Positions 53,517 to 64,000 of a DNA stretch of 64,000 nucleotides are shown one piece after another (the first letter of the stretch is position 1; every line of letters begins with the position of its first letter). The stretch covers positions 3,658,001-3,722,000 of the forward strand of contig NZ_CP017580.1 of the NCBI RefSeq assembly GCF_001806325.1, written 5' to 3'. The stretch comes from Curtobacterium sp. BH-2-1-1. Its GTDB lineage: Bacteria > Actinomycetota > Actinomycetes > Actinomycetales > Microbacteriaceae. The notes under the pieces were generated by a model, which ran no database searches, was not told the DNA's origin, and saw only the letters and a program-made list of their open reading frames with translations. A program made the position numbers and the translations under genes.

Positions 53517-54518
53517 ATGAAGAAGCTCATCAACGATCCGCAGGCCGTGGTCGACGAGACCGTGCGCGGGTTCGCCCGTGCCCACGCCGGCCACGTCGTG
53601 CTGGTCGAGGACCCGATCCACATCCACCGCGCGGACGCTCCGGTGTCCGGCAAGGTCGGGATCGTCAGCGGCGGGGGCAGCGGACACGAGCCGCTGCACG
53701 CCGGGTTCGTCGGGTACGGCATGCTCGACGCCGCGGTGCCGGGGCCGGTGTTCACGAGTCCCACACCGGACCCGATCGTCGCCGCGACGAAGGCCGTCGA
53801 CGGGGGAGCGGGTGTGCTCCACATCGTGAAGAACTACACCGGCGACGTCCTCAACTTCGAGACCGCCGCCGAACTCGCCGGCATGGACGACGTCCGGGTC
53901 GAGTCCGTCGTGGTGGACGACGACGTCGCCGTGCAGGACTCGCTCTACACGGCCGGCCGACGCGGGGTCGCCGGCACCGTCGTCGTCGAGAAGTGCGCGG
54001 GCGCCGCAGCCGAGCGAGGGGACGACCTCGACGCCGTCGCCGCCGTCGCCCGGCACGTGAACGACGTCACGCGCTCGATGGGGCTCGCACTCGCCTCCGG
54101 CACCGTCCCGCACGCCGGCGAGCCGTCGTTCACCCTCGCCGACGACGAGGTCGAGCTCGGCATCGGCATCCACGGCGAGCCCGGCCGCGAACGCATCCCG
54201 ATGGCCCCGGCCGACGAGCTCGTGGACCGCGTGCTCGAACCGATCCTCACCGACCTCGCCGCTCCCGCCGGGTCGAAGCTGCTGCTCCTCGTGAACGGCA
54301 TGGGCGGCACGCCCCTCTCCGAGCTCTACATCGCCTACCGACGCGCCGCCGAGGTCCTCACCGACCGCGGGTTCGACGTCACGCGTAGCCTGGTCGGCGA
54401 CTACGTGACATCCCTCGAGATGCAGGGGTTCTCGCTCACCGTCACGGTGCTCGACGACGAACTCACCGCCCTCTGGGACGCACCGGTGGAGACCCCGGCA
54501 CTGCGCTGGGGACGCTGA
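53517..54518 (+). CDS. dhaK: Dihydroxyacetone kinase, substrate-binding subunit
   Basis: 333 residues. [20 protein letters not shown] (about 45-64) binds dihydroxyacetone, [15 protein letters not shown] follows, and the substrate-linking His is in GIGIHGEPG (about 218). [17 protein letters not shown] lies near 260. Works with DhaL and the phosphoprotein DhaM in PEP-dependent phosphorylation. Confidence 0.95.
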
Positions 54519-54575
54519 ACCCACCGCACCACGACCCGGCCCGTGAACGGAGCCGGACGCAGGAAGGAACACGAA

Positions 54576-55202
54576 TTGGCGCTCGACACCGCATGGGCCA
54601 TCGACTGGGTCCGACGCACCGCCGCGACGATCGACGAGCACCGGGCCGAGCTCGTCACGCTCGACCGGGAGATCGGCGACGGCGACCACGGTGAGAACCT
54701 CGACCGCGGCTTCCGTGCCGTGCTCGAGGCCGTGGACGCCGGTTCGTTCGACACCCCCGGAGCCGTGCTCAAGGTCGTCGCGACGAAGCTCATCTCGACG
54801 GTCGGCGGTGCCGCGGGTCCGCTGTTCGGGACCGCGTACCTCAAGGCCGCACAGGCCGCCGGGGACGCCGCGGAGCTCGACGCCGACACGCTCGTCCAGG
54901 TGCTGACCGCAGCCCGCGACGGCATCGTGTCCCGGGGCAAGGCGGCCGTCGGCGACAAGACCATGGTCGACGCCTGGTCGCCCGCGGTCGACGCCGCCGG
55001 CGCCGCGGCCGCCGCCGGGGACAGCCCCGAGCAGGTGCTCGCCGCCGCCGCCGACGCGGCCGTGACCGGCGCGGAGTCGACCGACCCGCTGGTCGCCCAC
55101 AAGGGCCGCGCGAGCTACCTCGGCGAACGTGCCGTCGGGCACCGCGACCCGGGCGCGCAGTCCACCGTGTACATCCTCCGCGCGGCCGTGGACGCCGCGT
55201 GA
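54576..55202 (+). CDS. dhaL: Dihydroxyacetone kinase, ADP-binding subunit
   Basis: 208 residues from TTG 54576, placed by AGGAAGGA 8 bases upstream. EIGDGDHGENLDRGF (about 29) holds the three Asp metal ligands; TVGGAAGPLFGTA and GDKTMVDAW complete the site. Tightly bound ADP is phosphorylated by DhaM. Its stop overlaps dhaM. Confidence 0.94.
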   Translation: MALDTAWAIDWVRRTAATIDEHRAELVTLDREIGDGDHGENLDRGFRAVLEAVDAGSFDTPGAVLKVVATKLISTVGGAAGPLFGTAYLKAAQAAGDAAELDADTLVQVLTAARDGIVSRGKAAVGDKTMVDAWSPAVDAAGAAAAAGDSPEQVLAAAADAAVTGAESTDPLVAHKGRASYLGERAVGHRDPGAQSTVYILRAAVDAA

Positions 55203-55921
55203 CCGTCGGGATCCTGATCGTCTCGCACAGCGCGGCGATCGCGACCGGCACCGTCGAGCTCGCCCGGCAGATGGCGGCGGACGTCCCGCTCGTGGCCGCC
55301 GGCGGCACCGACGACGGCGGCATCGGCACCTCGTTCGAGGCCATCACGGCCGGCATCGAGGAACTCGTCGACGCCGAGGCAGTGGTCGTCCTGTGCGACC
55401 TCGGCTCCGCGTACCTGACCACCGACACGGCGCTCGACTTCCTCGACGACGACGTCCGGGCGCGCGTGCACGTCTCGCAGGCCCCGCTGGTCGAGGGCGC
55501 GGTCGCCGCGGCCGTCGCCGCACAGACCGGTGGCGACGTCGACGCGGTCCTGGCCGCTGCCGCGTCTGCCGCAGGCTCCGAGGCGGACGCGAGTCGCGCC
55601 TCCAGTCCGTCCGGCGACGGCCCAGGAGGCGCGGTGCCGGTTTCCGGGACCGGCCCCGTCGACGACGTGGCCGCGTCCGAGACGGTGGAACTCGTGAACG
55701 AGAGCGGCCTGCACGCCCGGCCGGCCGCGGAGTTCGTGAAGACGGCCGCCAGGTTCGACGCTGAGGTCCGGGTCAACGGGGTGGACGCGAAGAGCCTGCT
55801 CGCGATCATGGCGCTCGCACTGCCCAGGGGGGCGTCGGTGACCATCGAGGGGACCGGAGCCGACGCGCAGGACGCGGTCGACGCGCTCGTGGCCCTCGTG
55901 CGGTCCGGCTTCGGCGAGTAG
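55199..55921 (+). CDS. dhaM: PTS-dependent DHA phosphotransferase DhaM (EIIA-HPr fusion)
   Basis: 240 residues: an EIIA(man)-like domain (about 1-125) with active His in VSHSA (9), then a linker, then a complete HPr domain from about 160 with SGLHARPAAEF (His about 171) and the KSLLAIMAL region. The EI-like domain of E. coli DhaM is absent, so it needs separate enzyme I. The linker (about 125-157) is encoded by two dispersed-repeat copies. GTG start overlaps dhaL. Confidence 0.92.
   Translation: MTVGILIVSHSAAIATGTVELARQMAADVPLVAAGGTDDGGIGTSFEAITAGIEELVDAEAVVVLCDLGSAYLTTDTALDFLDDDVRARVHVSQAPLVEGAVAAAVAAQTGGDVDAVLAAAASAAGSEADASRASSPSGDGPGGAVPVSGTGPVDDVAASETVELVNESGLHARPAAEFVKTAARFDAEVRVNGVDAKSLLAIMALALPRGASVTIEGTGADAQDAVDALVALVRSGFGE
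55585..55641. repeat. Two dispersed GGAGGCGCG copies inside dhaM
   Basis: An inverse copy TCGCGCCTCC at 55594-55603 and a direct copy GGAGGCGCGGTGCCGGT at 55625-55641 make up the DhaM interdomain linker in frame. Confidence 0.6.
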
Positions 55922-55941
55922 GGCGCTGCGCCTCCTGCGGG

Positions 55942-56535
55942 TCAGGTGATCGAGACGGTGCCGGCGAGGTCGAGGTCGGACGGTCCGCCGGTGACCCCGG
56001 CGTCGGCGAGCAGCGTGGCGCCGAACACCGCGCTCCAGAACGTCCGCGCGTCGCGTCCTACGCCGCTCCGGCTCGTCCAGCAGTGTTCGGTGACGACCCG
56101 CTCGAGGTAGCGCTCCGACTGCCGGAACAGCACCTGCAGGAGCAGCCGCACCCGCTCGCGTTGCGCGGCATCGTCGCCCGTGCTCGCGAGCGCCCGCACG
56201 ACGAGCGGCGTCGACGGCATCGCGAGGGCGGTGCGGGCGAGGACCTGCCGGAACGCCTCCGCGCTCGTGGCGTGGCGTCCGGCTGCCTGCAACCGGGTCG
56301 TGTCGCGCAGGAACAGCGCGAACGCGGCGTCGAGCACCAGTCGGTCCTTCGATCCGTAGTGGTGCGTGATCTGGTTCGGGTACACGCCCGCCGCCCGGGC
56401 GATCTCGCTCACGGTCACCGTCCGGTGCTCGGTCGGGCCGCCGGTACCGCTGAGCAGTCCGGCGGTCGCGGCGAGGATCCGCGCCCGGGTCGCTGCCCCG
56501 CGCGGGGTGCCCGGGGCGTCGCTCGTGGTTGCCAT
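55942..56535 (-). CDS. TetR-family transcriptional regulator
   Basis: 197 residues from ATG 56535. The helix-turn-helix is at about 42-63 (VTVSEIARAAGVYPNQITHH, then YGSKDRLV), the latter in place of the usual YFxSK. Effector domain unrecognised. Divergent from the ketosynthase, with two dyads in the 56-base gap; it probably represses both itself and that gene, with a hydrophobic acyl ligand as inducer (inference). Confidence 0.85.
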   Translation of the reverse strand: MATTSDAPGTPRGAATRARILAATAGLLSGTGGPTEHRTVTVSEIARAAGVYPNQITHHYGSKDRLVLDAAFALFLRDTTRLQAAGRHATSAEAFRQVLARTALAMPSTPLVVRALASTGDDAAQRERVRLLLQVLFRQSERYLERVVTEHCWTSRSGVGRDARTFWSAVFGATLLADAGVTGGPSDLDLAGTVSIT

Positions 56536-56542
56536 GCCGGAA

Positions 56543-56578
56543 TTGTACGTGGTACAACTCAACTTGTTCAACGTACAA
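56543..56578. promoter_or_regulatory. Pair of TetR operator dyads
   Basis: TTGTACGTGGTACAA (56543-56557), a perfect 6-3-6 dyad, and TTGTTCAACGTACAA (56564-56578), the same with one mismatch. Centres are 21 bases (two helical turns) apart. They fill the gap between the two divergent start codons. Confidence 0.75.
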
Positions 56579-56591
56579 GAAGGAGCCTCCC

Positions 56592-57812
56592 GTGCACATC
56601 TCCATCACCGGCTACGGAGCGGTGTCGCCGTTCGGCCACGGCGTCGACACACTCTGGGACGCCCTGGTCGCCGGCCGCTCCGGCGTGCACGACCTCGACC
56701 GGACCGGCACGCACTGGGACCAGGTCCCGATCCGGGTCGGCGCAGCCGCCGCACTCGACGCGGACGGAGCACTCGGGCGGGTCCGGGCGAACCGGCTCGA
56801 CCGCAGCCAGCAGCTCGCGCTCGTCGCGGCAGAGGAGGCCTGGGCGGACGCCGGCGCCCCGACGGTCGAGGGGGACCGGCTCGCCGTCGTCGTCGGCACC
56901 GGGATCGGGGGAGTGGAGACGCTTCTCGACGCCCACGACGTGCTCGGCACCGCTGGCGCCCGTCGCGTGTCTCCCCGCACCGTCCCGATGCTCATGGCCA
57001 ACGCCGCCGCGGCGCAGATCAGCATCGCGTTCGGTGCACGGGCCGGGGCGTACACGACCGTGTCCGCCTGCGCCTCCGGGGCCGAGGCGATCGCGACGGC
57101 CGCACGGCTGATCGCCACGGGGGAGGCCGACGTCGTCATCGCCGGTGGGACCGAGGCGGCCGTGACGCCGGTGACCATGGCGTCCTTCGCGCAGTCGCAG
57201 GCCCTCGCGAAGCCCGGCGACGACGACCCGACCACGCTCTCCCGCCCCTTCGACGCATCGCGCCGCGGGTTCGTGCTCGGCGAGGGTGCCGGGTTCGTCG
57301 TGCTCGAGCGGGCCGACCACGCCGCTGCCCGCACCCAGCGCTCGCACGGGACCCTCGCCGGATGGGGCATCACCTCGGACGCCTTCCACATCACCGCGCC
57401 CCTGGCGGACGGGTCCGAGCAGGAGCGGGCGATGACCGCGGCGATCCGGATGGCCGGGTTGACGGGCGACGACATCGACCACGTCAACGCGCACGCGACC
57501 AGCACGCCCGTCGGGGACGTCGGCGAAGCCGCTGCGATCGCTCGCGCCGTCGGCACCGGGGCGGTCGTGACCGCGCCGAAGGGGGCCATCGGGCACATGT
57601 TCGGGGCAGCCGGGGCGGTCGAGTCGATCCTCGCCGTGCGGGCGATCGAGACCGGGCTCGTGCCGGCGACGCTGAACCTGGAGCACCTCGACCCGGCGGT
57701 CGAGCTGGACGTGGTCGCCGGGGCCGCGCGGGAGGTGCCGATCCGGACGGCGCTGAACAACTCGTTCGGCTTCGGTGGGCAGAACGCATCGCTGGTGTTC
57801 ACCGCGGCGTGA
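56592..57812 (+). CDS. Stand-alone beta-ketoacyl-ACP synthase (FabF-like)
   Basis: 406 residues from GTG 56592 with AAGGAG upstream. The Cys-His-His triad is SACASGAEA (about 158), NAHATSTPVGD (about 298) and KGAIGHMFGA (about 334); the C-terminal NNSFGFGGQN is also typical. FabF class, about 410 residues. No acyl carrier protein or other fab genes nearby and a private TetR regulator, so it may be a regulated accessory condensing enzyme adjusting chain length or branching. Confidence 0.88.
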   Translation: MHISITGYGAVSPFGHGVDTLWDALVAGRSGVHDLDRTGTHWDQVPIRVGAAAALDADGALGRVRANRLDRSQQLALVAAEEAWADAGAPTVEGDRLAVVVGTGIGGVETLLDAHDVLGTAGARRVSPRTVPMLMANAAAAQISIAFGARAGAYTTVSACASGAEAIATAARLIATGEADVVIAGGTEAAVTPVTMASFAQSQALAKPGDDDPTTLSRPFDASRRGFVLGEGAGFVVLERADHAAARTQRSHGTLAGWGITSDAFHITAPLADGSEQERAMTAAIRMAGLTGDDIDHVNAHATSTPVGDVGEAAAIARAVGTGAVVTAPKGAIGHMFGAAGAVESILAVRAIETGLVPATLNLEHLDPAVELDVVAGAAREVPIRTALNNSFGFGGQNASLVFTAA

Positions 57813-57866
57813 CCCGGCCGCGAGACGGCGGACCCCTCGCGCCATGACCAGGATACGGCCGGACCA

Positions 57867-57886
57867 GGGGCTTGCCGCAAGACCCC
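57867..57886. promoter_or_regulatory. Rifamycin-associated-element-like palindrome
   Basis: GGGGCTTGCCGCAAGACCCC: arms GGGG-CTTGC and GCAAG-A-CCCC with one extra base on the right. It lies at about -34 relative to the predicted start of the helR message. It resembles the RAE known upstream of rifamycin-inducible genes in actinobacteria; the exact consensus is from memory. Confidence 0.75.
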
Positions 57887-57896
57887 CGTCGTGCCC

Positions 57897-57902
57897 CACA
57901 AT
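57897..57902 (+). promoter_or_regulatory. -10 box CACAAT for helR
   Basis: 8 bases before GTG 57911 and 10 bases after the RAE-like element, so the element occupies the -35 region. Predicted leaderless. Confidence 0.45.
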
Positions 57903-57910
57903 CGGCCCTC

Positions 57911-60040
57911 GTGTCAACGCCGTACCCCGTCTTCGACCTCCCCGAACGCCTCGCCGACAAGGCCGATCCGGCCCTGATCGCCGACGACGAGCGGCACTTC
58001 GCCGCGATCGCCGCCACCCTCGACGCCTCGACCACGACGCTCGCCCGACGCCTCGACGAGCTCCGCCGGACCCGAGCGGGCGGCGGGGAGTACACGGTGG
58101 AGCGCGATGCCGAGGTGCGCCGCGTCACCCGCGAGCTCACGGCACTCCGGCGGTACGGCCTCGACCTGTGCATCGGGAGGATGGTGTTCGCCGACCGCCC
58201 AGAGCCGGTCTACGTCGGCCGCTCGGGGCTCACCGACGCGGACCTCGAGCGGCTGCTGGTCGACTGGCGTTCCGCGACCGCGGAACCGTTCTTCGCGGCG
58301 TCGCACGGCGATCCTCGTGGCCTGGTGAGCCGGCGACGCTACCGCTGGCAGCACGGTCGGATCGTGGACTACTGGGACGAGGCATTCACCGACGAGGGCC
58401 TGCTGCACACCGCGGCCCTGGACGACCAGTCGGCGTTCGTCGCGAGTCTCGGCACCAGCCGCAGCCCCCGGATGCGGGACGTGCTCGGGACGATCCAGTC
58501 CGACCAGGACGCCGTGATCCGCGCAGACTCGGCCGGAGCACTCGTGGTGGACGGCGGCCCGGGGACCGGCAAGACCGTCGTCGCGCTGCACCGGGCGGCG
58601 TACCTGCTGTACGCCGACCCGCGCGTGTCACCGCGGCACGGGGGTGTGCTGTTCGTCGGGCCGACGCACGGGCACCTCGACTACGTCGGGGACGTGCTGC
58701 CGGCGCTGGGCGAGGACGGGGTGCACCTCGCGACCGTGACGGACCTGGTGCCCGAGGGCGCCGACGTCCCCGACGAGGCCGATGCGGACGTCGCGGCGAT
58801 CAAGGCGGGTACGGCGCTGACCCGGGCGGTCGAGCGTGCGGTCCGCGGGTACGAGCAGCCGCCGGAGCGGACGGTCGTCGTCGAGACGGACTGGGCGGAC
58901 GTGCCGATCACGCCCGACGACTGGGCCGACGCGTTCGACGCGGCGGACCCGGGCGACCCGCACAACGCCGCACGCTCCGACGTCTGGGAGGCGCTGCTCG
59001 AGATCGTGACCAACCGCCTGGCGGGAGCGGCCCCACCCAGGGCGATCCGCGCCTCCGTGGACGACAGCGACGTCCTGCGTGACACGTTCCGCCGGTCGTG
59101 GCCCGTGCTCGACCCGGACGGCGTCGTCGCGGACCTGCTCGCGGTGCCCGACCACCTGGCGCGGTGCGCGCCCGACCTCACCGCAGCCGACCGCGCACGC
59201 CTGCACCGCCCGGACGCCCGCGCGTGGACCCGGTCCGACCTGCCCGTGCTCGACGCCGCCCGTCGGCGCATCGGTGACCCGGCCGCTCCCGACCGGGAGC
59301 GTCGTGCTGCGGCCGCCAGGGCCGCCGAACGCGAGCGGATGGACCGGGTGATCGAGGACCTCGTCGCGAACGACGACTCCGAGCTGCAGCTCATGAGCTT
59401 GCTGCGCGGAGCGGACGCGCGGAACAGCCTCGACGACGACGCGGTGACGGCGGCACCGGACGCCGATGCCCTGGCGGGACCGTTCGCGCACGTCGTCGTC
59501 GACGAGGCCCAGGAGCTGACGGACGCGGAGTGGCTGATGCTGTTGCGGCGCTGCCCGAGCCGGAGCCTCACGGTCGTGGGGGACCGGACCCAGGCGCGGG
59601 AGCCGTTCGCCGAGTCGTGGGAGGACCGGCTCGCCCGGATCGGGCTCCGGGACGTGCGGACCGCGCGTCTCCGGATCAACTACCGCACGCCGTCCGAGGT
59701 GATGGCGGTCGCGGAACCGATCATCCGCGCAGCCGTGCCGGACGCGAACGTGCCGACCTCGATCCGCGACTCCGGCGTGCCGGTGCAGTACGGGTCCGCC
59801 GACGAGCGGGACGTGGTCCTGGACACGTGGGCCGCGGCGAGCGCCGACGGGATCGCGTGCGTGGTCGGCGACGCCGGGTACGCGGGGACGGACCGGATCC
59901 GTTCCCTCTCCCCGGAGGCGACGAAGGGTCTCGAGTTCGACCTCGTCGTCCTGGTGGACCCGGAGCGGTGGCGCCCGGTCGACCGCTACGTGGCGATGAC
60001 CCGGGCGACCCAACGACTGGTCGTGCTCAGCTCGGCGTGA
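57911..60040 (+). CDS. helR: RNA polymerase recycling motor ATPase HelR (HelD-like superfamily 1)
   Basis: 709 residues from GTG 57911. The N-terminal coiled coil (RHFAAIAATLDASTTTLARR, about 24-55) enters RNA polymerase in HelD proteins. Walker A VDGGPGTGKTVVALH is near 214; an insertion with DPHNAARSDVWEALLE follows; Walker B VVVDEAQELTDAEW near 527; VGDRTQ; helicase motif RINYRTPSEV near 594; and ATKGLEFDLVVL. HelR removes RNA polymerase from DNA and displaces bound rifamycin, giving low-level rifamycin tolerance. Size and the RAE-like site upstream separate it from UvrD/PcrA. Its end overlaps the XRE gene by 14 bases. Confidence 0.87.
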   Translation: MSTPYPVFDLPERLADKADPALIADDERHFAAIAATLDASTTTLARRLDELRRTRAGGGEYTVERDAEVRRVTRELTALRRYGLDLCIGRMVFADRPEPVYVGRSGLTDADLERLLVDWRSATAEPFFAASHGDPRGLVSRRRYRWQHGRIVDYWDEAFTDEGLLHTAALDDQSAFVASLGTSRSPRMRDVLGTIQSDQDAVIRADSAGALVVDGGPGTGKTVVALHRAAYLLYADPRVSPRHGGVLFVGPTHGHLDYVGDVLPALGEDGVHLATVTDLVPEGADVPDEADADVAAIKAGTALTRAVERAVRGYEQPPERTVVVETDWADVPITPDDWADAFDAADPGDPHNAARSDVWEALLEIVTNRLAGAAPPRAIRASVDDSDVLRDTFRRSWPVLDPDGVVADLLAVPDHLARCAPDLTAADRARLHRPDARAWTRSDLPVLDAARRRIGDPAAPDRERRAAAARAAERERMDRVIEDLVANDDSELQLMSLLRGADARNSLDDDAVTAAPDADALAGPFAHVVVDEAQELTDAEWLMLLRRCPSRSLTVVGDRTQAREPFAESWEDRLARIGLRDVRTARLRINYRTPSEVMAVAEPIIRAAVPDANVPTSIRDSGVPVQYGSADERDVVLDTWAAASADGIACVVGDAGYAGTDRIRSLSPEATKGLEFDLVVLVDPERWRPVDRYVAMTRATQRLVVLSSA

Positions 60041-60860
60041 GTTCCTGCAGGCCGGTGACGCGCAGGAGGTCGAGCTTGGCGGCGTCCTCGGTGCCGGGGA
60101 CGGCCGTGTAGACGACGATGCGGAGGTCCCCGCCCGGCACGCTCAGGACGTCGCAGTCGATCTCGATCGGGCCGACGGGGGAGTGCACGCGCTTGCGGCT
60201 CGCCCGGTGCTCGGCGACGCGTCCGGTGTCCCAGCGGCGCTCGAACTCGGGGGACTCGCGACGGAGGCGTGCCACCAGCTCGGCGAGGTCCCGGTCGGCG
60301 GGGTACCGTCCGACGGCGGCGCGGAGGTCGGCGGCGAAGTCGCTGGAGAACTCCTCCTGGTGCTCCTCGTCCCACTCGACCTCGTCGTGGCCGTGCATGA
60401 AGTGTCGCCACACGAGGTTCCGGTCGATGCCGGTGTACCGGGAGGGGTCACCGGTGAGCGCTGCCCAGAGGTCGTTCCACAGGACGATGTCGTGCGCGGC
60501 GGTGAACACGGCGAGGGGGACGTCGCCGAGGCGGTCGACGATGCGCTGCACGCCCGGGGTGACGTGCCGGGGGACGACCCGGCGCGACGGCGGCGCGGAC
60601 CCTGCGACGCGGCAGAGGTGGTCGCGTTCCTCCTCGGAGAGACGGAGCGCGGTGGCGAGTGCGCCGAGCAACTGCGGCGACGGGTTCGTCGCGCGTCCCT
60701 GCTCGAGGCGGACGACGTAGTCGACGCTCACCCCGGCGAGCGCAGCGAGCTCCTCGCGACGGAGGCCCGGCGTCCGTCGACCGGGCCCGGCCGGCAGGCC
60801 GACCGCTTCGGGACGGACCCGGTCGCGCCAGGAACGCAGCACACTCGCGAACTCGCTCAT
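60027..60860 (-). CDS. XRE-family regulator with MmyB-like ligand-binding domain
   Basis: 277 residues from ATG 60860 (60869 also possible). TPGLRREELAALAGVSVDYV (about 28-47) is the helix-turn-helix of the MmyB-type group, followed by RLEQGRATNPSPQLLGALA. The C-terminal domain (about 105-265) with VWRHFMHGHDEVEWDEEH and HSPVGPIEIDCDVLSVPGGD binds small, often fatty-acid-like ligands. It is divergent from an SDR gene 102 bases away, a common pairing, and probably controls it. Confidence 0.87.
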   Translation of the reverse strand: MSEFASVLRSWRDRVRPEAVGLPAGPGRRTPGLRREELAALAGVSVDYVVRLEQGRATNPSPQLLGALATALRLSEEERDHLCRVAGSAPPSRRVVPRHVTPGVQRIVDRLGDVPLAVFTAAHDIVLWNDLWAALTGDPSRYTGIDRNLVWRHFMHGHDEVEWDEEHQEEFSSDFAADLRAAVGRYPADRDLAELVARLRRESPEFERRWDTGRVAEHRASRKRVHSPVGPIEIDCDVLSVPGGDLRIVVYTAVPGTEDAAKLDLLRVTGLQELTPS

Positions 60861-60962
60861 GCCCACCATCCTCGACCCGCGCCTCCTGGCCTGCCTGGTA
60901 CTGGTGGTCCCACTGTCGAGCGGTGCCTGGGGGACCCGGCCACGGGGGCGGAGGCTTGGCGC

Positions 60963-61643
60963 ATGACAACGACACTCATCACCGGAGCCAACCGCAGTCT
61001 CGGGCTCGAGACCGTCCGTCGCCTCGTCGAGGCCGGGCACACCGTGTACGCCGGCATGCGCGATCCGGCCACGGGGGACGAGGCGCGTGCCCTCGGCGCA
61101 CACGTCGTCCAGCTGGACGTCACCGACCAGTCCTCGGTCGAGCGCGCGGTCGCCGGACTGCCCGGACTCGACGTGCTCGTGAACAACGCGGGCATCCTCG
61201 GGACGTCGTTCGGGGTCGACGACCTCGACGCCGCTGCGATCGGAGCCGTGCTCGACACGAACGTGACCGGCGTCGTGCGCGTGACGCAGGCGGCGCTGCC
61301 GCTGCTGCGGGAGTCGGCGAACCCGGTCATCGTGAACGTGGCCTCGGGTGTGGGCTTCCCACGGTGGCTGACGACTCCGGGGCGGGACGAGTACCCGGTG
61401 CCGGCGGTGCCGTACGCGGCGTCGAAGGCGGCGCTCATCGCCCTGACCGTGCAGTACGCGAAGAACCTGCCCGGGTTCCGGGTGAACGCGAGCGACCCCG
61501 GGTACACGGCGACGGAGTTCAACGGGTTCGGCGGGCACCAGACCGTGACCGAGGGGACGGACGCCACGGTGGCGCTGGCGACGCTCGGCGCGGACGGCCC
61601 CACGGGGGAGTTCCACGACCGCGACGGGCGCGTCGCGTACTGA
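60963..61643 (+). CDS. Short-chain dehydrogenase/reductase
   Basis: 226 residues. The NAD(P) site is LITGANRSLGLET (5-17), NNAG lies near 75, the catalytic YAASK near 148, and the catalytic Ser comes before VGFPRW. Classical SDR with a short C-terminus. Substrate unknown; under likely control of the divergent XRE regulator. Confidence 0.87.
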   Translation: MTTTLITGANRSLGLETVRRLVEAGHTVYAGMRDPATGDEARALGAHVVQLDVTDQSSVERAVAGLPGLDVLVNNAGILGTSFGVDDLDAAAIGAVLDTNVTGVVRVTQAALPLLRESANPVIVNVASGVGFPRWLTTPGRDEYPVPAVPYAASKAALIALTVQYAKNLPGFRVNASDPGYTATEFNGFGGHQTVTEGTDATVALATLGADGPTGEFHDRDGRVAY

Positions 61644-61645
61644 GC

Positions 61646-61657
61646 GGGGGGGGGGGG
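61646..61657 (+). repeat. Homopolymer of 12 G
   Basis: Twelve consecutive G directly after the SDR stop codon, followed by GGGCGGGGCGCGCCCCGCGG that can fold. No coding frame crosses it. Confidence 0.85.
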
Positions 61658-61695
61658 CGGGCGGGGCGCGCCCCGCGGGGCGCCGCGGCCGCTTC

Positions 61696-61746
61696 GTGAG
61701 CAGAAGATGTCGGGTCGGACGGATGGACCCGACACCTTCTGCTCAC
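61696..61746. repeat. Large palindrome, TGAGCAGAA family, copy 2
   Basis: Arms of 21 at 61696-61716 and 61726-61746 pair with one G-T pair and a 9-base loop. The outer ten bases of each arm and the inner CGGGTC/GACCCG equal those of the copy at 44271, and both are followed by CAC(G/C)AAGTGCG. Confidence 0.75.
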
Positions 61747-61777
61747 CAAGTGCGTCCCCACCGCGGGCGAGACGGCC

Positions 61778-61797
61778 TGGAGGCACGGCTCGCGTCC
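61778..61797 (+). repeat. Dispersed GGAGGCACGG repeat copy
   Basis: TGGAGGCACGGCTCGCGTCC. The inverse copy inside dhaM (55585-55603) reads TGGAGGCGCGACTCGCGTCC on its minus strand, a match over 18 of 20 bases. Confidence 0.6.
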
Positions 61798-61874
61798 GAC
61801 GGACGAGCTCGCCCTGTCCCGTGGCCGGGTCGCAGAGCGCCCGCCAGCGCGTTCCCGTCTGTCAGGATGACCGG

Positions 61875-62906
61875 ATGCGCGCAGTCCAGTACGACGAGTT
61901 CGGTTCCGTCCCCGCGGTCGTCGAGGTCCCGGACCCGGTCGCCCCGATCGACGGGGTGGTCGTCCGGGTCGCCGCGACCGGGGTCTGCCGGAGCGACTGG
62001 CACGCGTGGAAGGGGCACGACGACTCGGTGCGCCTGCCGCACGTCCCCGGGCACGAGTTCGCCGGGGTGGTGTCGTCCGTCGGGCCCGACGTCCGCGGGT
62101 TCGCCGTGGGGAACCGGGTCACCGCGCCGTTCGTCTTCGCGTGCGGCGAGTGCGAGCAGTGCCTGGACGGTGCGACGCAGGTGTGCACCCGGCAGCAGCA
62201 GCCCGGCTTCACGCTGCCCGGTTCGTACGCCGAGGCCGTGGTGGTCCCGCACGCGGACGTCAACCTCGTCGCGCTGCCGGACGCCGTCGGGTTCGCCGAG
62301 GCCACCGGACTCGGATGCCGCTTCGGGACCGCGTACCACGCACTGCACGCCCGGGGACGGGTGGCCGCCGGCGAGTGGGTCGCCGTCTTGGGCTGCGGGG
62401 GAGTCGGACTGTCGACCGTCATCGTCGCGGTCGCCGCCGGAGCGAAGGTCGTCGCGGTGGACGTCTCGCCCGCCGCGCTCGCACGTGCGGAAGCCCTCGG
62501 TGCGGTCGCGGTGCCGATGGACGACGCGGTCGGGGAGGCCGTCCGAGCCGTCACGGGCGGCGGAGCCCACGTGTCCGTGGACGCCTTCGGCAGCCGCGCC
62601 ACGTCGGTCGCCGCGGTCGCCGCACTCCGGCCTCGGGGTCGGCACGTCCAGGTCGGGCTGCTGCTCGACGACGAGGCCGTGCCGTCGATCCCGATGGGCC
62701 GCGTCATCGGCGACGAGCTCGAGCTGCTCGGCAGTCACGGGATCTCGGTGGGGGAGTACGCGGCGATGCTCGACGACGTCGTCGCGGGTCGCCTCCGCCC
62801 GTCGGAGTCGATCGGTCGGACGATCGGGTTCGACGAGCTGCCCGAGGCGATCCTCGCGATGGACCGGCCGGCGACCTCCGCGGGCATGACGGTCGCGGTG
62901 TTCTGA
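61875..62906 (+). CDS. Zinc-dependent alcohol dehydrogenase
   Basis: 343 residues, medium-chain dehydrogenase. Catalytic zinc ligands: Cys in GVCRSDWHAW (about 38), GHEF (about 59) and later Cys/Glu; structural zinc Cys cluster CGECEQCLDGATQVC (about 92-106); NAD site VLGCGGVGLSTVIVAV (about 172). CAGGAT lies 6 bases before the ATG, indicating a leaderless start. Aldehyde/alcohol specificity unknown. Confidence 0.9.
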   Translation: MRAVQYDEFGSVPAVVEVPDPVAPIDGVVVRVAATGVCRSDWHAWKGHDDSVRLPHVPGHEFAGVVSSVGPDVRGFAVGNRVTAPFVFACGECEQCLDGATQVCTRQQQPGFTLPGSYAEAVVVPHADVNLVALPDAVGFAEATGLGCRFGTAYHALHARGRVAAGEWVAVLGCGGVGLSTVIVAVAAGAKVVAVDVSPAALARAEALGAVAVPMDDAVGEAVRAVTGGGAHVSVDAFGSRATSVAAVAALRPRGRHVQVGLLLDDEAVPSIPMGRVIGDELELLGSHGISVGEYAAMLDDVVAGRLRPSESIGRTIGFDELPEAILAMDRPATSAGMTVAVF

Positions 62907-62922
62907 GCGCCGGCGACCGCGC

Positions 62923-63516
62923 TCAGCGCTTCGGTCGGTACACGTCCGCCTTCGCGCCGCCGTCGAACACCGTCGAGCTGATCAGCGTCAGGTCGAGTTC
63001 GTCCTGCAGCCCCGAGAAGATCCCGTCACCCGTCCCGACCACCACCGGCAGGACCACCAGGCGGTACTCGTCGACGAGGCCCGCAGCCACCAGGCTCCGG
63101 CAGAAGTCCGTCCCGCCCTGTGCGAGGACGTCAGCGCCGCCCTCGGCCCGCAGCCGGTCGACCTCGGCCACGAGGTCGCCGTGCGCCACCCGGGCACCGG
63201 TCCAGGTCGCCGCCGCGGGGGAGCCGGCCCCACCCGTGTCGACCGTGGCGGGATCGAACCCGGCCTGGCGGGTGAAGACGACCTTCGGGACGGTGTTCAT
63301 CGCACCGGCGACGGGTGTCGTCGCGTTCGCCCAGAAGGCGGCGATGGACTCGAACGTCCGACGACCGAACGCGTGCACACCGGCGCCGGACACGGTGTCG
63401 AGCACCCACGCGGCCGAGTCCGGACTCGCGGCGCGGAACATCCAGTCGGACTCCGCACGTGCACCTGCGACGAAACCGTCGAGGGACATCGACATCTTGA
63501 GGACGAGCTTCCGCAT
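62923..63516 (-). CDS. Dihydrofolate reductase/RibD C-terminal family reductase
   Basis: 197 residues. LVLKMSMSLDGFVAG (about 4-18), HAFGRRTFESIAAFW (about 48) and VLAQGGTDFCRSLVAAGLVD (about 130-149) match the RibD_C fold, but conserved DHFR residues are missing, as in YyaP/YwjB-like proteins. NADPH-dependent reduction of an unknown substrate. TAGCAT on the minus strand near 63561 could be its -10. Confidence 0.83.
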   Translation of the reverse strand: MRKLVLKMSMSLDGFVAGARAESDWMFRAASPDSAAWVLDTVSGAGVHAFGRRTFESIAAFWANATTPVAGAMNTVPKVVFTRQAGFDPATVDTGGAGSPAAATWTGARVAHGDLVAEVDRLRAEGGADVLAQGGTDFCRSLVAAGLVDEYRLVVLPVVVGTGDGIFSGLQDELDLTLISSTVFDGGAKADVYRPKR

Positions 63517-63628
63517 CGGACACCGCCGCTTCCGAGCACCGCTCGGCGCTCGTGACGGCGATGCTAGAGGGCAGTGGCGTCGACCACCAGAGCGCGGCCG
63601 CAGCGCGGCCGGATGGATCTGAGTTGAC

Positions 63629-63642
63629 ATAATATGCATTAT
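63629..63642. promoter_or_regulatory. AT-rich dyad 1 before alr
   Basis: ATAAT-ATGC-ATTAT, immediately after a TTGACA (63624-63629). Strikingly AT-rich in this genome. Confidence 0.5.
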
Positions 63643-63664
63643 CGGCGCGCGGCGAGTGGGGCCA

Positions 63665-63712
63665 GGAGGCGCGGATCACCGCAGCCGGTCCGCTCACGCC
63701 AGCCGCGCCTCC
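63665..63712. repeat. Dispersed GGAGGCGCGG inverted repeat
   Basis: GGAGGCGCGG at 63665-63674 and CCGCGCCTCC at 63703-63712, with the same GCCA and CGTCC flanks as the copy at 38105. The rest of the 355-base spacer (63517-63871) holds the two AT-rich dyads and no gene. Confidence 0.7.
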
Positions 63713-63827
63713 CGTCCCTCGTGCAGCAGCGACGGCCGTCATCCGCGCGGCATCGACGGCTTGGGTCGCGCGGCGCGCGACGTCATCCCCAGGACCGATG
63801 ACTTCCTCCGTAGTGTCCGTGACCATC

Positions 63828-63842
63828 GATATCATGCATATC
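63828..63842. promoter_or_regulatory. AT-rich dyad 2 before alr
   Basis: GATAT-CATGC-ATATC, 30 bases before the alr start. Shares the ATGCAT core with dyad 1, 199 bases upstream. Confidence 0.5.
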
Positions 63843-63871
63843 AGTTCGGCAGCGATCTCCAGGAGGCAGGC

Positions 63872-64000
63872 ATGACACCGTCGCGCCCACAGCTCGTCGT
63901 CCACGACGACGCCGTCCGCGCGAACACCGCCGTGTTCGCCGACCGGACGGACGGCGGCGTCATGGCCGTCCTCAAGGCCGACGGGTTCGGCCACGGGGCG
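63872..64000 (+). CDS. alr: Alanine racemase, N-terminal fragment cut by the window edge
   Basis: The first 43 residues are visible. AGGAGG lies 5 bases before the ATG. VMAVLKADGFGHGA (30-43) is the PLP-lysine region of fold-III alanine racemases (usually VVKANAYGHG), preceded by AVRANTAVF. It makes D-alanine for peptidoglycan. A broader alanine-racemase-like amino-acid racemase is possible; the catalytic Tyr lies outside. Confidence 0.75.
   Translation, partial: MTPSRPQLVVHDDAVRANTAVFADRTDGGVMAVLKADGFGHGA

Follow-up and report, generated by a model that had tools for sequence, protein, structure and literature searches.

The helR locus and its palindrome

The window analyzed here is a 64,000-nucleotide stretch of the Curtobacterium sp. 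BH-2-1-1 genome. It carries a helR gene preceded by a palindrome of the rifamycin-associated element (RAE) type, and the features recognized or predicted around them are listed in Table 1.

Table 1. Coordinates of genes and predicted elements around the RAE, in window positions
Feature	Position	Strand	Remarks
Upstream ORF	56529..57812	+	uncertain start; stops 54 bp short of the RAE
Predicted antisense start and hairpin	57816..57843	-	GG at 57843-57842; without T-run
Predicted antisense -10, TATCCT	57850..57855	-	spacer 19; TANNNT at matching offset across RAE sites
RAE palindrome, GGGGCTTGCCGCAAGACCCC	57867..57886	.	-35 region common to the two predicted promoters
Predicted sense -35, TTGCCG	57872..57877	+	19-bp spacer to sense -10
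Predicted antisense -35, TTGCGG	57875..57880	-	palindrome right arm
Predicted sense -10, CACAAT	57897..57902	+	NANNNT at matching offset across RAE sites
helR, 709 aa	57911..60040	+	GTG start at predicted sense start (leaderless)

The helR product matched the NCBIfam model motor_HelR (NF041254) over its full length with 1064.9 bits (cut-off, 750), and stayed below the cut-offs of motor_HelR_2, HelD_MYCSM, and HelD_BACSU. The HelD-type ATPase recognized in a first-pass annotation is thus a HelR. Among its PDB relatives, Mycobacterium smegmatis HelD (6YXU) was found with an E value of 3e-94 and Bacillus subtilis HelD far more weakly. The protein has a Walker A motif at aa 215, an ANDDSE loop at aa 486, and a Walker B region at aa 528. 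The Asp-Asp of ANDDSE provides the acidic tip of the primary-channel loop, as read from an alignment that is weak in the loop; in M. smegmatis HelD, the acidic loop-tip residues are Glu484 and Asp485 (PMC10719064).

The start of helR is probably the GTG at 57911, which would be the first transcribed codon of the predicted sense promoter. This codon lies 24 bp after the last base of the palindrome and 44 after its first, not the roughly 34 bases given in the first pass. GTG stands at the predicted sense start in all five loci of the genus with an exact palindrome, the window included. Elsewhere, a start codon falls at the predicted sense +1 in 15 of 25 Microbacteriaceae sites, in 0 of 15 Mycobacterium sites, and in 13 of the 95 sites of the main set described below (among the matches listed).

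No rifamycin-modifying gene adjoins helR, as already proposed: by eye, there is none among the ORFs of 54000-64000. The upstream ORF resembles a FabF-type ketosynthase, a name that we assume from reading its sequence. The predicted antisense promoter is directed at the 3' end of this ORF. Elsewhere in the genome, an arr gene is found at G000:C1:419766-420062 (PF12120, 161.7 bits); its locus (L225, 3.3 kb) contains neither the RAE core nor the two-promoter pattern. A second HelD-type protein, encoded at G000:C1:487626-489851, scores 433.5 bits to motor_HelR, below the cut-off, and its gene is not near the sole RAE of the genome.

In the literature, an RAE is described as a 19-bp palindrome that overlaps the -35 element of a helD or helR promoter (PMC10719064, PMC8655204). 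The window site contains the 19-bp RAE palindrome GGGNCTTGCNNCAAGNCCC, and its 20-mer overlaps the -35 of a rifamycin-resistance gene whose promoter is predicted by sequence. At up to two mismatches, GGGGCTTGCCGCAAGACCCC is the sole site in a scan of the 3.8-Mb genome. When GGGGCTTGCNNCAAGNCCCC was searched at up to three mismatches, the window gave two matches, which are one site (57867-57886) seen on both strands; a shuffle control gave 0.35 matches expected per shuffle, and 3 of 100 shuffles had at least two. The same search in the whole genome returned eight matches, namely the RAE on its two strands (0 and 2 mismatches) and six at three mismatches. These six are uninformative, because the backward pattern matches 38 times in the genome at up to three mismatches. 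An Rfam scan of 57700-58000 gave no match up to E 1. We conclude that the palindrome is a genuine RAE before a true HelR gene. The first-pass annotation was right about this half of the locus, which is of a known kind, and missed the antisense half.

Two predicted promoters facing away from the element

Sigma-A promoters follow simple rules, with T at -12, A at -11, T at -7, and a start seven bases after -7. Read in this way, the RAE region looks like a back-to-back pair of sigma-70/sigma-A-type promoters with -35 elements that overlap within the palindrome. The layout is a mirror: each predicted -35 (TTGC) sits in one palindrome arm, and each -10 lies 19 bp away. A pattern made of the two -10s and their spacing matched the window once on the plus strand, at the RAE, and twice on the minus strand.

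The main set was built from the exact palindromes among the matches listed in a genome collection, together with those of the genus. Adjoining genes were clustered and the flanks were aligned by gene direction. Among the matches listed, the five largest clusters were HelR (43 sites, including the window's own protein), Rox (29), Rph (11), Rgt (9), and Arr (7). One Arr (PF12120) and one Rox (PF01494) were checked with Pfam, and we take the Rph and Rgt clusters to be such from our own reading of the proteins. Of 118 sites among the matches listed, 99 belonged to the five clusters and 96 were kept. The three dropped were L050 (archaeal) and L065 (Christensenellaceae), both in coding-like DNA, and the Bradyrhizobium rox-like L045. 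Loci matching the pattern on the other strand only were left out; two -10-like boxes are present at L067, L078, and L073, and none at L021, L023, L036, and L105. Outside the clusters, both boxes occur at L028, L038, L048, L055, L064, and L096, and at most one at the others. Four misses were kept in the 96. These are L128; L098, which by eye is a base shorter; L024, whose sense spacer by eye is one longer; and L071, where the orientation followed the wrong gene of a pair. At L071 (2661), one RAE lies between divergent Rgt-like (+) and HelR (-) genes, and the two-promoter signature is directed at the Rgt-like gene.

Boxes were scored at d12 on either side, d being the distance from the 19-mer. 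Among the matches listed, the antisense TANNNT stood there in 93 of the 96 main-set sites (next best offset, 5/95), the sense NANNNT in 94, and both together in 92; with the dropped three restored, the counts were 93/99 and 94/99. In the same set of listed matches, -11A and -7T were among the best-conserved flank positions on either side (98-99%), and the third base of the antisense box was near random. The -12 position was T in 97% on the antisense side and C in 85% on the sense side, and the predicted antisense +1 and +2 (d24 and d25) were G in 95% and 96%.

Other readings of the antisense box were considered. It does not simply serve a divergent gene, because upstream orientation is mixed: among the matches listed, the upstream gene lay on the same strand at 42 of the 96 sites and on the opposite strand at 36, with 11 too short and 7 unclear. 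A TATANG box with a 17-bp spacer was also rejected, as its T and A outside TANNNT are just 80-83% conserved and loci losing it retain TANNNT at 19. Finally, because ANNNT reads alike on the two strands, what we take for the antisense -10 could also be a sense box, CAACNT. No conserved -35 was seen for a tandem sense promoter built on this box, and both the -12T and the terminator direction favor the antisense reading; the tandem one is kept as a caveat.

The antisense DNA was then scored for terminators, defined by our own score as a hairpin plus a T-run (n = 95, L090 being omitted since it begins at a contig edge). Among the matches listed, 28 of 95 main-set sites had one reading antisense, and the same DNA read in sense had 1. 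Control counts on the listed matches were 0/96 for the sense side, 2/96 for sense-side DNA read antisense, and 0-3 in five shuffles of the main-set DNA. The Microbacteriaceae set gave 7/25 antisense versus 0/25 in the sense reading. No terminator was scored at the remaining 67 of 95 main-set sites (among the matches listed), at 18 of 25 Microbacteriaceae sites, or in the window. The first predicted antisense base was paired in 79 of 95 main-set folds (among the matches listed), 13 of 24 Microbacteriaceae folds, and 7 of 15 Mycobacterium folds, and the Mycobacterium antisense DNA gave no folding signal (z -0.3). In the window, the hairpin begins at +1 in a 36-nt fold (-15.9 kcal/mol); in a 45-nt fold its first two bases are unpaired. 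Judged by sequence, some of the antisense units end in an intrinsic terminator starting at the unit's own first base.

Distribution among relatives and in other phyla

According to the first-pass annotation, a lack of the palindrome upstream of orthologous helR genes in close relatives would count against its reading. At up to one mismatch it occurs in 6 of 66 genomes of the genus; five are exact and stand before HelR every time, and the sixth is a one-strand imperfect match. The five exact loci have both -10s (NANNNT or better), the spacing, and the GG start intact. Across the Microbacteriaceae, we searched 249 genomes and took the best 30 of 48 over the cut-off; the CTTG...CAAG core lies upstream of HelR in 25 of these best 30 of 48, with the antisense TANNNT in 24 and the sense box in all 25. 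The element is thus conserved before orthologues, yet found in exact form in only 5/66 genomes of the genus. The placing of the window in the Microbacteriaceae also stands; the family code further includes Leifsonia (Diaminobutyricibacter) tongyongensis. Three Microbacteriaceae HelR loci without RAE (L150, L153, and L157) have, by eye, another upstream sequence in common (around gacgatggc), perhaps a different promoter. RAE-helR in this family is not new, and a figure legend puts two Microbacterium species in a potential helR group (PMC8655204).

The Mycobacterium HelD set took 30 of 34. The core was present within the searched stretch at 15 of the 30, and these 15 all have the antisense and the sense box, with a GG start in 12. 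A third protein-chosen set held 25 of 26 genes, the window's own being left out, so that the three sets total 85. A pattern of -10s and spacing only, with the middle unspecified, matched one place before 59 of the 85 HelR/HelD genes, and in all 59 the middle was RAE-like; L152 is an RAE with one core mismatch. L151 has the core and misses the full two-box pattern (antisense GATAAT). The element is missing from 26 of the 85. In the 59 loci, found without the palindrome, the left arm reads GGG in 58, 59, and 59, followed by CTTG in 59/59, and the right arm reads CAAG in 59, 58, 59, and 59 and CCC in 49, 56, and 47. Overlap with the main set is 1 of 25 Microbacteriaceae sites and 2 of the 59. A phylum-wide search with the core pattern was discarded as too unspecific.

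The first palindrome matches already included arr loci from Stenotrophomonas and from a Xanthomonadaceae bin. In the genus of the Stenotrophomonas locus (L226-L252), 27 of 61 genomes match the pattern, and a backward control matches once. From 30 loci of this group, 5 duplicates and 1 without arr were removed, leaving 24. All 24 carry TANNNT on both sides, antisense and sense, together with the GG start; the T-run is found in 23/24, and the predicted antisense RNA is roughly 27 nt. The 24 are distinct over 160 bp, and a main-set locus has 99 bp in common with two of them. They represent few independent events, because they were palindrome-chosen and are close kin. This gammaproteobacterial group nonetheless keeps both predicted promoters and the predicted terminator before arr.

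The alphaproteobacterial arr locus L128 has neither box at the expected offset, and the RAE core was absent upstream of arr in the five Proteobacteria plasmid records examined, of 1555 matching records. The Bradyrhizobium rox-like gene of L045 (1155) has an RAE-like palindrome but no -10 box at either expected place. In contigs binned as Chloroflexi, L103 and L125 carry Rph-like and Rox-like genes linked to an RAE, which could reflect transfer or misbinning.

A possible promoter switch and its known counterparts

How the RAE works is described as unresolved in a paper of 2026 (PMC12802891). We judge it somewhat better than an even bet that the RAE sits at the center of a two-promoter switch of rigid geometry, in which the antisense promoter is the default and the drug shifts use to the sense side via a further factor. 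Since the -35 elements overlap, one polymerase should exclude the other, and only one of the two promoters could be occupied at a time. As long as the drug is absent, the antisense promoter would take most of the RNA polymerase and make a very short RNA, thereby keeping the leaderless helR promoter low. With rifamycin, promoter use would move to the sense side, and HelR would then free RNA polymerase from the drug.

We infer that the antisense promoter is the stronger, default one, because of its -12T and because of the likeness of the main-set antisense box to that of mycobacterial rpoB promoter II, CGCTATNGTT, which is described as strong (PMC6181997). With CGCTATANGTT, which is CGCTATNGTT plus one extra A, 69 of 95 main sites (among the matches listed) matched at up to two mismatches, and only 7 of 25 Microbacteriaceae and 6 of 15 Mycobacterium sites did.

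With rifamycin on part of the polymerase, exclusion by itself can only depress sense output: across 200,000 parameter sets, a fixed-rate exclusion model showed no rise with the drug. On this model, the antisense promoter alone would not explain induction. A further factor is likely, because plain exclusion fails to induce and because the palindrome arms are conserved beyond what the -35s need. It would most likely read the arms and respond to rifamycin or to rifamycin-arrested polymerase. One mapped promoter could not be placed in the two-promoter scheme, the M. smegmatis sense promoter P1, whose start lies about 20 bp upstream of the RAE (PMC10719064); a sense-readable ANNNT at d19-23 was seen in 46 of 95 main-set sites (among the matches listed).

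The conserved arms, seen in the 59 loci found without the palindrome, also suit a classical operator: some rifamycin-responsive transcription factor would act on the sense promoter by binding the RAE, and the antisense promoter would be a by-product with no role. Such a factor is suggested by a review (PMC10719064) and a research paper (PMC12802891). However, a useless antisense -10 should decay, and its key bases match the sense ones in conservation; the antisense unit starts with GG, and at some loci it runs into a terminator. The presence of the element in Stenotrophomonas would moreover require the factor in two phyla. We regard the operator as a serious contender that is nonetheless improbable.

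It is less probable again that RNA polymerase is the only sensor and that rifamycin alters promoter competition with no other factor, as proposed for B. subtilis helD. The presence of the whole two-promoter unit in Stenotrophomonas is in line with this idea, and precedents exist in B. subtilis helD and pps (PMC12802891) and in M. smegmatis rpoB (PMC6181997). But the RAE promoters overlap and diverge, so the B. subtilis collision step is missing; plain exclusion never induces in the model; and within 69 bp upstream, most main-set sites have no further conserved -10-like box in common (among the matches listed). Finally, it is very improbable that the window site is an RAE by descent only and helR not rifamycin-inducible in this strain: the exact palindrome, present in only 5/66 genomes of the genus, may be newly gained or being lost, and the window antisense unit has no T-run, but both -10s, the spacing, GG, and GTG are intact in all five loci.

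Beyond the two-promoter switch with its further factor, a broader reading is possible, and we hold it only tentatively. The RAE may be more than an operator and form the heart of a two-promoter rifamycin sensor common to two phyla, in which the antisense promoter with its very short, often self-terminating RNA would keep polymerase facing the wrong way, and rifamycin, acting via RNA polymerase and at most a general polymerase-binding factor, would release it towards the resistance gene.

The two-promoter layout may help explain the drug switch-on of RAE genes, and the conserved antisense promoter gives the question of how rifamycins are sensed through the RAE a concrete, cheap test. It also hints at a parallel with the B. 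subtilis alarm, and the range of the element now includes Stenotrophomonas. The mirror antisense promoter is what looks new, provisionally: the published RAE accounts, in the part of the literature covered, make no mention of one.

At the level tested, no difference was seen between the window HelR and known HelR/class II HelD proteins (M. abscessus MAB_3189c, S. venezuelae SVEN_6029, and M. smegmatis HelD, 6YXU), with which it shares the full-length NF041254 match, the Walker motifs, and the acidic tip. The locus also agrees with the Actinobacteria RAEs before helR/helD and rifamycin-modifying genes, in its 19-bp palindrome over the -35 and its HelR gene. Those have one or two sense promoters in the available accounts, whereas we predict an added mirror antisense promoter, with a terminator in part of the loci, and the two-promoter unit is found here in Stenotrophomonas as well.

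In mycobacterial rpoB-rpoC (PMC6181997), as proposed here, a promoter is kept down by a second one until the drug lifts the suppression, and the CGCTATNGTT box is similar. In contrast to the RAE, those promoters are in tandem on one strand, and the available text mentions no palindrome. The B. subtilis helD/pps alarm (PMC12802891) likewise has a sense and an antisense promoter before a rifamycin-protection gene, with 19-bp antisense spacers, and both kinds of promoter are predicted, from sequence alone, upstream of the window helR. The B. subtilis promoters converge, 39 bp apart counting both starts, whereas the RAE promoters diverge and overlap at their -35s. The published model requires convergent, non-overlapping promoters, and shorter spacing with polymerase clash abolished induction (PMC12802891). 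As it stands, it does not fit the RAE, because the RAE promoters diverge and overlap.
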